From: Candidatus Coproplasma excrementavium
GTDB lineage: Bacteria > Bacillota > Clostridia > Christensenellales > Borkfalkiaceae
Reading direction: 5' to 3'
DNA: 47,029 nucleotides
NCBI GenBank assembly: GCA_018715195.1
Contig: DVMA01000047.1
Coordinates: forward strand, 1 to 47,029
Positions 35,351 through 41,748 of the stretch are shown here, one piece after another (within the stretch, counting starts at the first letter, position 1; each line of letters starts with the position of its first letter). The position numbers and the translations under genes were made by a program. The notes under the pieces are model-generated. The model saw only the letters and a program-made list of their open reading frames with translations, searched no databases and had not been told where the DNA came from.

Positions 35351-35572
35351 ATGACGGCTTGGGATTTGACGCGCGGAAAGAGCGCAAAAATAACAAAGGT
35401 AAATTTAAGCGGAGCGGCGGCCGAAAGGCTGACTGCGCTCGGCTTTGTGCGCGGCGCAAAAGTTTTGTCGGGCGGGCGTTCGCTTATGGACAGCAGCATA
35501 CTTTTAATGTGCGGCGCGGTAAGGCTTGCCGCGCGCAGGTGCGTTGCCGAGCTTATCGAGGTGGCGCAATGA
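35351..35572 (+). CDS. feoA: FeoA-like ferrous iron transport accessory protein
   Basis: 73-aa SH3-like ORF: KVNLSGAAAERLTALGFVRGAKVL...CGAVRLAARRCVAELIEV, directly before feoB. Confidence 0.8.
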   Translation: MTAWDLTRGKSAKITKVNLSGAAAERLTALGFVRGAKVLSGGRSLMDSSILLMCGAVRLAARRCVAELIEVAQ

Positions 35573-37224
35573 AGGTAGTGCTTGCGGGCAACCCCAACGC
35601 GGGCAAGACGACCCTTTTCAACGCGCTCACGCACAGTCGGCTTAAAACGGGCAACTGGCACGGCGTTACCACGCGGCCATATATCAAGGTGCACCGCGGC
35701 ATTACCTATGCGGACGTGCCGGGCATGTACTCCTTCAACGGTTATTCAATGGAGGAGGCCTCCGCGGCGGAGGAGATAAAGTCAGCGGACGTGGTTGTAA
35801 ACGTAGTGGACGGGCTGACGCTGAAAAATTCGCTCTCGCTCACCCGCGCAATTGTAAATATAAACAGCTGTACAATTGTGTACGTAAGCAAACTCGGTGC
35901 GCTTAAAAAGAGGGGCGGCAGGCTGGATTGCGCCGCTCTCTCCCGCGCCATAGGCCTGCCCGTAGTTACTGAAATTGCGCAGCTCAAAGCGCTTTTGCGC
36001 ACCTTTTCATTGCAGAAAAAAAGCGATTGTCCGCAGATAAAAAATTTCAGCCAGAGTGCAATAGATGCGGCATACTATGGGGGTAATCTCAATTTCAGCC
36101 GTGCGGAAAAGCTGTTTTACAATAAATATTTTGCGCTCGCATTTTTTATATTTTCAATAATTTTAATGTTCTTTATGGCCTTCTTCCCGGGTATGCCCGG
36201 TGACGCGCTCAAAAACGCAACCGAATGGCTGATAACCGTAAAGGCGGGGGAGGCTGTAAAAAGTTTTCTGCCTGCGGGAAAGGTGCAGTCGCTTGTGTGC
36301 GACGGCATAATAGGCGGCGCGGGCGGCGTACTATCCTTTGTGCCGCAGCTCGCCGTGCTGTACCTTTTTCTTACTCTTCTGGACGAAAGCGGAATAATGT
36401 CCGCGCTGTCGTTTGTCACGGACGGAGTATTTGCAAAGGTACATCTTTCGGGGCGGGCGGCCTTTTCGCTGATATCGGGTTTCGGGTGTACGGCGGCGGC
36501 CATTATGACTACGCGCGGCTTTACTTCGCGTACCTCGCAGCTGAGAACTGTGGCCATACTGCCGTTTATTCCCTGCGGCGCAAAGATGCCCGTCTTTCTC
36601 ACGCTTCTTTCTCCGCTCTTTAAAAATCCATTTCCCGCAATATGCATTCTTTACTTTGCGGGCATAGCGGCCGCGCTGGGTGCCTGCGCTCTGTTCAAAG
36701 GCGGCGGGGAGGATATGCTCTCGGAAGTGGCTCCCATATCTCTTCCGCAGCCCGTCGCCGTTTTAAAAAAGTTGTATTTTTACATCAAAGGGTTTATAAT
36801 TAAGGTAGCAACGGCCGTGCTGCTCTTCTGCATAGTCAGCTGGGTGCTTTCCAACTTTACATTCACTTTTACGCCCTGCGAAGTGGAGGAGAGTATGCTT
36901 GCCTCCATAAGCCGCCTTGTACTGCCGCTGTTTGTGCCTATGGGATTTGACGACTGGCGCCTCGCATACGCAATGATATCGGGTTTTGCGGCTAAGGAAA
37001 ACATCGCCGCCACGATAGGCGTGCTTATGCCCGAGGGAGCGGGACTCTCCCTTGCATCGGGCATTGCCGCAAGCGTGTTTGTGCTTGCCTGCCCTGCGTG
37101 CGTATCGGCGTTTGCGGCCTCCTGCCGCGAAATCGGCGTAAAATATACCTTAAAATTTTTCTTTATTCAGCTCGTGGTGGCTTTTTTAAGCGCATATCTC
37201 ATACATTTACTGTTATCGCTATGA
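35569..37224 (+). CDS. feoB: FeoB-like ferrous iron transporter, compact and atypical
   Basis: GNPNAGKTTLFNALTHSRLKTGNWHGVTT; DVPGMYSFN; GFGCTAAAIMTTR; PFIPCGAKMPVF; start 35569 by ATGA overlap with feoA. Confidence 0.88.
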   Translation: MKVVLAGNPNAGKTTLFNALTHSRLKTGNWHGVTTRPYIKVHRGITYADVPGMYSFNGYSMEEASAAEEIKSADVVVNVVDGLTLKNSLSLTRAIVNINSCTIVYVSKLGALKKRGGRLDCAALSRAIGLPVVTEIAQLKALLRTFSLQKKSDCPQIKNFSQSAIDAAYYGGNLNFSRAEKLFYNKYFALAFFIFSIILMFFMAFFPGMPGDALKNATEWLITVKAGEAVKSFLPAGKVQSLVCDGIIGGAGGVLSFVPQLAVLYLFLTLLDESGIMSALSFVTDGVFAKVHLSGRAAFSLISGFGCTAAAIMTTRGFTSRTSQLRTVAILPFIPCGAKMPVFLTLLSPLFKNPFPAICILYFAGIAAALGACALFKGGGEDMLSEVAPISLPQPVAVLKKLYFYIKGFIIKVATAVLLFCIVSWVLSNFTFTFTPCEVEESMLASISRLVLPLFVPMGFDDWRLAYAMISGFAAKENIAATIGVLMPEGAGLSLASGIAASVFVLACPACVSAFAASCREIGVKYTLKFFFIQLVVAFLSAYLIHLLLSL

Positions 37225-39822: not shown

Positions 39823-39847
39823 GTTTTTGCGGGCCCGCACAGGGTTA
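39823..39847 (+). promoter_or_regulatory. Candidate SigB-type promoter upstream of the sigma-factor operon
   Basis: GTTTTT-13 nt-GGGTTA versus the general-stress consensus GTTTAA-N13/14-GGGTAT. Confidence 0.4.
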
Positions 39848-39923
39848 TAAGTAAGTATACGCAAACACAAGTAGTCCCCGCGAGGCGCCGAAAGCGTTTT
39901 ACGGGGCGAAAGGAGAATAATTT

Positions 39924-40229
39924 ATGCAGAACGTTAAACTTATCTCTGCCGAAGATAAACTGGTTATTGCCCTCTATGGCGAGATAGATTCGGCCGTTTC
40001 GGATGATTTTTACGCGCAGGTAAGCGCCATCTATAACCACGATAAAAAGGATATAGAATTCGATTGCTCCGCGCTCACTTTCATAGACAGTACCACGCTG
40101 GGTACATTCGTTAAAATTTTCAAACATCTGAAGCAGGACGGGCACACGTTCGCGCTTAAAAACGTGCAGCAGAGAATCAAAAAACTCTTCCAGATCTGCG
40201 CGCTCGACACCATTATGGAGATAGACTGA
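39924..40229 (+). CDS. STAS-domain anti-anti-sigma factor (RsbV/SpoIIAA-like)
   Basis: VIALYGEIDSAVSDDFYAQV; FDCSALTFIDSTTLGTFVKIFK; SD AAAGGAG. Confidence 0.9.
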   Translation: MQNVKLISAEDKLVIALYGEIDSAVSDDFYAQVSAIYNHDKKDIEFDCSALTFIDSTTLGTFVKIFKHLKQDGHTFALKNVQQRIKKLFQICALDTIMEID

Positions 40230-40576
40230 TGAAAGAATTTTCTGTAAGGTTCGACCTTTCGGACAGTGAATTTAATACTGCTTTAAGGCTTGTTGCGGGT
40301 GCGCTCTGCTCACTCGCCGAAAAGGACGTGGACGCCGCCGAAGATTTCAAAGTGTGCGTAACAGAGAGTGCGCTTATACTCAAAAATTGCGGCTTTAAGA
40401 CGCTGAACGCCACATTCTGTGCGCAGGACGGCGTAAAAGCTGTACTCAGCGGCGAGGGCGGAACTCCCGCCGATGCCGATAACGAGCTTTCGCTTGCGCT
40501 GATAGGCGCTCTCATGAACGGTTGCAGCATTGACCGCAGCGGTGACGTCATAAAATCGGTGACGCTTGAATTATGA
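40229..40576 (+). CDS. Degenerate RsbW/SpoIIAB-like HATPase-fold protein (pseudokinase candidate)
   Basis: EDFKVCVTESALILKNCGF aligns with the RsbW N-box region but lacks the Asn; no DxGxG or GxGL; overlaps both neighbours. Confidence 0.65.
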   Translation: MKEFSVRFDLSDSEFNTALRLVAGALCSLAEKDVDAAEDFKVCVTESALILKNCGFKTLNATFCAQDGVKAVLSGEGGTPADADNELSLALIGALMNGCSIDRSGDVIKSVTLEL

Positions 40577-41301
40577 TGACTAATGAACAGGCAAACGAGC
40601 TGTTCCGCGAATACCGCAAAACGGGCGATATAAAACTCAGGAATAAGCTCGTGGAAAATTTCATGTACATAGCCGAAATACTCGCAAAAAAGTTTGCGGG
40701 CAGGGGCGTTGAGTACGATGACCTGTTGCAGGTTGCGTCCGAAGCGCTCATTCTGGGCGTAGAAAAATTTGACCCGGAACTCGGCAACCAGTTCACAACC
40801 TATGTTACGCCCACCATAACGGGCATGATAAAAAACTATTTCCGCGACTATTCGCGTTCGGTGCGTCTGCCCCGCAGAATTTACTCGCTCGGCGCAAAAA
40901 TCAAGGACGAAACAAACGAATATTACAAGCAATACGGCGTAAAGCCCACGGTAAAGCAACTTGCCGAAAAACTCGGTGAGAGCGAAGAGTCGATTATGGA
41001 GGCTATGGAAAGCCGTCACCCCGTAAGCCTGGACGGCACCGTGCAGAGCGAGGACGGCGACGGTGTTTTGTATGACGTAATCCCCGACCCCGTAGATTCG
41101 TTTGAAAAGTTTGACGATGCACAGTCGCTCAAAGATGAAATTAAAAAGCTGAACCCCACCGAACAGAAGGTGGTGGCACTGAGGTTTGTGCAAGGCAAAT
41201 CGCAGTCTGAAGTAGGTAAAATACTCGGCGTAAGCCAGATGTTTGTTTCGCGCGCGGAGCGCAAAATAGTTGAAAAATTAAAGGAAGCATTATCTCAATG
41301 A
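40573..41301 (+). CDS. SigB/SigF/SigG-type RNA polymerase sigma factor
   Basis: KLRNKLVENFMYIAEILAKKFAGRGVEYDDLLQVASEALILGVEKFDPELGNQFTTYVTPTITGMIKNYFRDYSRSVRLPRRI; region 4 SQSEVGKILGVSQMFVSRAERKIVEKLK. Confidence 0.93.
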   Translation: MMTNEQANELFREYRKTGDIKLRNKLVENFMYIAEILAKKFAGRGVEYDDLLQVASEALILGVEKFDPELGNQFTTYVTPTITGMIKNYFRDYSRSVRLPRRIYSLGAKIKDETNEYYKQYGVKPTVKQLAEKLGESEESIMEAMESRHPVSLDGTVQSEDGDGVLYDVIPDPVDSFEKFDDAQSLKDEIKKLNPTEQKVVALRFVQGKSQSEVGKILGVSQMFVSRAERKIVEKLKEALSQ

Positions 41302-41684
41302 TTACATTCAGGGTGGACAATTTGAAGAATATGAACGCTTGCCTGAAACCGTTCCTCGATTATCTGCGCAGCGTTGACGTTGACGATGACGACGTATTCG
41401 ACAGCCGCCTTGTATCCTGCGAGCTTATTTCCAACGTTTTGAAACATCTTGGCGAAACTGCAAATTTTGAGGGCGCCGTCAACGGCGAGGATATTGTCAT
41501 AACGGTATCTTCGGAGAGCACGGACGGCACCAAAATGTGTGCCAAACTTCCCGATGTCTTTTCGGAGAGCGGCAGAGGGCTTTATATCATAAAAGCCATA
41601 TGCGACCACATATCTGCCGACGGTTGTTCCATCAGAGTAAGCATACGTCGCCACAAAGAGGAGGATGGCGGGCAGGGTAAGTGA
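41298..41684 (+). CDS. RsbW-like HATPase anti-sigma factor
   Basis: RLVSCELISNVLKH N-box; ESGRGLYIIKAICD; ATGA overlap with the sigma gene. Confidence 0.8.
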   Translation: MITFRVDNLKNMNACLKPFLDYLRSVDVDDDDVFDSRLVSCELISNVLKHLGETANFEGAVNGEDIVITVSSESTDGTKMCAKLPDVFSESGRGLYIIKAICDHISADGCSIRVSIRRHKEEDGGQGK

Positions 41685-41721: not shown

Positions 41722-41748
41722 CCGTCTGCTTTCTGCAGGCGGTTTTTT
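41722..41748 (+). terminator. Rho-independent terminator of the sigma operon
   Basis: CCGTCTGC-TTTCT-GCAGGCGGTTTTTT. Confidence 0.85.

Follow-up and report, generated by a model that had tools for sequence, protein, structure and literature searches.

The window analysed here, a 47,029-nt stretch of a Candidatus Coproplasma excrementavium contig (DVMA01000047.1), carries four co-oriented genes at 39924-41684 that overlap by 1, 4 and 4 nt, as the first-pass annotation of this DNA had described. These genes encode a STAS protein, an RsbW-fold protein (hereafter W1), a sigma factor and a second RsbW-like protein (W2), and lie among the following features:

39823..39850, plus strand: GTTT-N16-GGTTATAA, a SigB-like promoter ahead of the operon
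39910..39915, plus strand: ribosome binding site AAGGAG, by direct reading
39924..40229, plus strand: STAS anti-anti-sigma protein, RsbV/SpoIIAA-like (PF01740, E 3e-16; TIGR00377 above cut-off)
40229..40576, plus strand: W1, 115 aa, RsbW-fold protein, predicted ATP-independent anti-sigma factor
40573..41301, plus strand: sigma factor of the SigB/SigF/SigG family (TIGR02980, E 7e-61; r2, r3 and r4 domains)
41298..41684, plus strand: W2, 128 aa, RsbW-like HATPase, predicted STAS kinase or derivative of one (HATPase_c_2, E 4e-6)
41722..41742, plus strand: intrinsic-terminator-like hairpin followed by T6 (consensus match; the count of such hairpins in the region is not above that in shuffled sequences)

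The domain searches bore out the earlier assignments of an RsbV-like STAS gene and a SigB/F-type sigma gene, although the sigma score against TIGR02980 (205.8 bits) is a little below the curated cut-off of 234.35; this is still its best family. The phospho-acceptor Ser of the STAS protein sits in the sequence FIDST, and the DS motif is found in 139/139 STAS proteins. By sigma factor, the closest named relatives (90-94% identity) belong to Candidatus Coproplasma and further uncultured Clostridia. Those at 27-37% identity are mostly from SpoIIA operons or are other sigma factors, and told us little about this operon. Upstream of the operon region, the window also encodes a FeoB-like GTPase/permease (35359-37224; FeoB_N and Gate domains), whose long TTG-started N-terminal extension is probably a start-codon artefact.

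Single-sequence searches of the PDB with W1 or W2 found nothing useful, and profiles were needed to place either protein. W1 leaves a marginal HATPase_c_2 trace in Pfam (E 0.23), and its genus-level alignment scored weakly in hhalign (probability 11% for SpoIIAB, 0.1% for W2) because such alignments are shallow (Neff about 2). An order-wide alignment resolved the matter: this expanded profile matched Bacillus subtilis RsbW at E 6e-18, mycobacterial UsfX at 1e-10 and SpoIIAB at 0.002, RsbW and UsfX being its best matches. An AlphaFold2 model built from 28 aligned sequences has a pLDDT of 95.7, a pTM of 0.88 and the element order E-H-H-E-E-H-E-E, and all 19 of its Foldseek matches in the PDB below E 0.001 are RsbW, SpoIIAB or UsfX, with UsfX the best. 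Structure prediction, proposed at first pass as the check on W1, therefore puts it inside the RsbW/SpoIIAB fold rather than outside the HATPase fold.

The kinase motifs have gone from this fold, in agreement with the original reading of an Ile in the N box and missing G1 and G2 boxes. The N box reads ESALILKN, in which the Glu is kept and Ile (E+4) takes the place of the Mg-binding Asn; another residue stands in for the G1 Asp (VLSGEGG) and no G2 GxG remains, so that W1 combines an RsbW-type GHKL fold with none of the N-box Asn, the G1 DxGxG or the G2 GxG. Loss of the Asn was read in 28/28 close W1 sequences from direct alignments, as the HMM alignment often gaps these residues in the most divergent W1 proteins. 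Purifying selection nevertheless acts on the gene (dN/dS 0.13, compared with 0.06 for sigma), which rules out a decaying pseudogene, and 24 columns are invariant among 28 homologues. SpoIIAB Arg20 touches both sigma-F and SpoIIAA in published structures, and an Arg aligned with it is present in 147/148 W1 proteins, the remaining one being truncated; it is not conserved in W2. With an RsbW fold, lost kinase motifs and a gene adjoining a SigB/F sigma gene, W1 shares the hallmarks of UsfX/RsbW1-type proteins and looks like an ATP-independent anti-sigma factor, with binding to sigma and STAS predicted.

The AlphaFold2 model of W2 (pLDDT 81, with the lid at residues 80-90 below 50) and its Foldseek matches are of the RsbW/SpoIIAB type. 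RsbW, SpoIIAB and histidine kinases are matched by the expanded W2 profile, UsfX is not, and W2 evolves under purifying selection (dN/dS 0.14). The HATPase_c_2 match lies just under the Pfam cut-off. Across the class, the N-box Glu and Asn are found in 104/104 linked W2 proteins and GRG in 103/104. The initial description of a protein that keeps its N box and GRG but has an unrecognisable G1 box was accurate, since the G1 Asp is missing in 45/45 loci of the window's family while the N box and G2 (GRG) are intact. Of the 20 families with a linked W2, 17 keep G1 and have the complete N/G1/G2 set of an RsbW-type STAS kinase; the window's family, f29 and f2 have lost G1. By its motifs W2 looks like a STAS kinase, an activity that is predicted; given the lost G1 Asp, it is uncertain whether W2 of the window's family is still a kinase.

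The four-gene order, whose conservation in relatives had been suggested as a check, is kept at all untruncated loci of the window's family, and class-wide it recurs in 20 families; it is not a chance arrangement. Across the order, the W1 profile matches 46/297 genomes from 20 genera, and W1 is present in more than 20 families. To relate the state of W1 to the presence of W2, we used 146 loci outside spoIIA, from a survey seeded with degenerate W1, in which loci left unclassed were cut by contig ends and genome-wide statements rest on family searches. Degenerate W1 with W2 directly after sigma accounts for 104 loci in 20 families, full-motif W1 without a linked W2 (the canonical three-gene operon) for 17 loci in eight families, and degenerate W1 without a linked W2 for 18 loci in seven families; full-motif W1 with a linked W2 was found in none of the 146.

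The loci with degenerate W1 and no linked W2 differ in whether STAS is kept. Loci of families f4, f23 and f34 have no detectable STAS gene, and the eight STAS-less genomes searched in these families yielded no W2-like protein beyond weak matches. By contrast, each of the ten genomes searched in f78, f63 and f84, where STAS and degenerate W1 are both present, encodes an unlinked W2-like protein (E 1e-15 to 1e-25; the weakest, E 3e-15, is in f84 genome G611). In f78 and f63 the unlinked genes mostly occupy the arrangement lon-engB-W2-bipA; the copies read at this site have the N, G1 and G2 motifs. Together, the locus counts and genome searches indicate that W2 accompanies STAS plus degenerate W1, and that genomes with a complete W1 or without STAS have no W2. 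One exception is genome G554, which has a full-motif W1 and, in a different gene context, a W2-like protein (E 2.5e-16). In three families W1 stays beside sigma without W2. Among the individual loci read, L251-L255, L257 and L258 have W2-like genes near engB and bipA in f78/f63, with lon adjoining in several, and the f4 loci L142, L143, L144 and L145 are two-gene loci of degenerate W1 and sigma only, adjoining dnaE.

The correlation between W1 and W2 rests on few independent events, because the two labels change only about three to four times on the sigma tree. Fisher p values overstate the association, and an independent-pairs test, with at most four pairs, is underpowered. Families f63 and f78, placed among full-motif families, look like a second origin, so that the division of RsbW function apparently arose at least twice in Clostridia, in addition to mycobacteria.

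The genome (G000) encodes two PP2C proteins. One is SpoIIE (L087, contig C13) and the other is a 357-aa PAS-PP2C phosphatase on contig C11 (L088:1498-2568, minus strand; PF07228, E 7e-29), which has the RsbU/RsbP-type build of a PP2C/SpoIIE domain with an N-terminal sensor, its PAS matches lying just below cut-offs. When PP2C proteins were classed by score and length, 27 of the 29 genomes of the window's family with the operon, and none of the 52 without it, encode short PAS-PP2C-like proteins; by genus the figures are 5/6 and 0/12. This co-occurrence places the phosphatase with the operon and argues that STAS is still phosphorylated in the window's family despite the loss of G1 from W2. Three Cys residues of the PAS region (C52, C59 and C68) are present in 19/21 aligned proteins, plus a fourth Cys close by, which makes the PAS-PP2C protein a candidate for sensing redox state or metals in this circuit. 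The genome also has a separate and intact spoIIAA-spoIIAB-sigF operon (L001, contig C87), which rules out that the four-gene operon is an altered copy of its only spoIIA. With an intact spoIIA and SpoIIE the organism may be a spore former, and cross-talk of its SpoIIAB with the STAS protein of the four-gene operon is conceivable.

All 37 loci of the window's clade have the promoter motif GTTT-N16-GKTTATA with the same spacing (reverse complement, 2/139), and the motif has one match in the window, compared with 0.02 expected. It resembles the SigB consensus, GTTTAA-N12-15-GGGTAT. Within the genus, 15 genomes contain 69 occurrences of the motif, compared with 26 for a reversed control, with recurrent sites at L264, L266, L270, L279, L295-L300 and L311, and it lies upstream of groES (12 genomes), htpG (seven), a CobW-type GTPase gene (four), an NfeD-like protein gene (three) and grpE (one). 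This suggests an autoregulated stress/chaperone sigma factor, although the chaperone regulon is a lead rather than a result because the AT-rich groES and htpG sites also loosely fit sigma-A.

In canonical partner switching, one protein is both the kinase and the anti-sigma factor. We propose, at a probability of roughly 70%, that the operon specifies a stress module in which these roles are divided. In unstressed cells, W1, with an RsbW fold that has lost both ATP binding and ATP use, would hold the sigma factor, while W2, the ATP-using paralogue, would keep STAS phosphorylated on its conserved Ser. Under stress, the PAS-PP2C phosphatase encoded elsewhere would dephosphorylate STAS, which would then bind W1 and free the sigma factor to transcribe the operon that encodes it and probably also genes for chaperones. 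Here we infer the direction of the switch and the target of the phosphatase. The division of labour raised by the first-pass annotation is supported by the joint occurrence of motif loss in W1 with a separate W2, whether linked or unlinked. The annotation had also held that homologues with intact boxes would count against the idea; intact proteins do occur at the W1 position, in three-gene operons, but these operons have no linked W2, so the homologues support the split-role idea rather than refute it.

In the window's family, both RsbW-fold proteins are without the classical adenine-binding Asp, while the phosphorylatable Ser and a dedicated PP2C phosphatase are retained. One tentative possibility is that W2 here phosphorylates STAS through a remodelled nucleotide pocket, or that the active kinase is a composite W1-W2 complex. 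W2 might instead be no kinase but a further non-catalytic binder, or an RsbT-like activator of a phosphatase, with another kinase such as SpoIIAB phosphorylating STAS. The absence of the G1 Asp throughout the family (45 loci) and from two further families, the shortened and poorly modelled lid and the intact SpoIIAB encoded on contig C87 all fit such a role, which we nonetheless consider doubtful, as the N-box Glu/Asn and GRG are invariant in close relatives, the gene is under purifying selection (dN/dS 0.14) and W2 is always kept with STAS in this family. RsbT, the Bacillus stressosome kinase, is a HATPase_c_2 kinase of a STAS protein and not an anti-sigma factor, and acts upstream on RsbS/RsbR and RsbU; it is not found in the gene order of W2, and the two are likened by role.

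RsbW and SpoIIAB function as homodimers, and the W1 and W2 genes are strictly conserved together, in translational coupling, on either side of sigma, as would be expected of an obligate pseudokinase-kinase heterodimer that recognises sigma or STAS as a pair. Such an obligate pair is unlikely, given that the W2-like gene is unlinked in two families and that W1 persists beside sigma without W2 in three. An exchange of roles, in which W2 is a canonical RsbW with both anti-sigma and kinase functions and W1 only titrates STAS, would suit the retention of catalytic motifs in W2 alone; it is made quite improbable by the canonical RsbW position of W1, by the SpoIIAB Arg20 equivalent that W1 has and W2 does not, and by the observation that W1 is what stays beside sigma once STAS and W2 are gone. 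That W1 is a functionless relic under decay, as the loss of every catalytic motif might imply, is already refuted by its dN/dS of 0.13, the 24 invariant columns in 28 homologues, the high-confidence fold and its presence in more than 20 families.

The divided-role module is of a known kind, with an experimental precedent. In Mycobacterium smegmatis, RsbW1, the UsfX homologue, is an anti-SigF factor without kinase activity, and RsbW2 is the sole kinase of RsfB (PMC7693655). As in the mycobacterial SigF system, two RsbW paralogues would share out the anti-sigma and STAS-kinase roles; RsbW2 has N, G1 and G2, and the best PDB fold match of W1 is UsfX. Mycobacteria, however, encode the kinase elsewhere, in rsfB-rsbW2, and have a two-gene rsbW1-sigF operon; the Clostridia version has all four genes in a single operon with the kinase-like gene after sigma, and in the window's family that gene is without G1. 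No paper describing this four-gene version was found in the open-licence literature. A remodelled-pocket W2 or a composite W1-W2 kinase, if true, would be a step beyond the known RsbW1/RsbW2 split.

The contrast first drawn with operons that carry one kinase stands for rsbV-rsbW-sigB and spoIIA, but not as a general rule, since M. smegmatis RsbW1/RsbW2 already divides the roles. The rsbV-rsbW-sigB operons of Bacillus and Clostridioides difficile share the order of STAS, RsbW fold and SigB-family sigma with a SigB-like promoter upstream, but there one RsbW does both jobs, whereas the Clostridia operon has a motif-less W1 and a post-sigma HATPase. Gene order and folds are also the same in spoIIAA-spoIIAB-sigF, which is a separate operon with a separate sigma factor and whose SpoIIAB has all motifs; unlike it, the four-gene operon has W2. 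The four-gene operons represent a widespread natural separation of kinase and anti-sigma functions, in which it becomes directly testable whether ATP turnover serves sigma capture or only STAS inactivation, and for uncultured bacteria of the gut they offer a candidate circuit in which a stress sigma factor controls chaperones. They also carry a warning for annotation: in gut Clostridia, a protein labelled RsbW and encoded ahead of a sigma factor is often no kinase.
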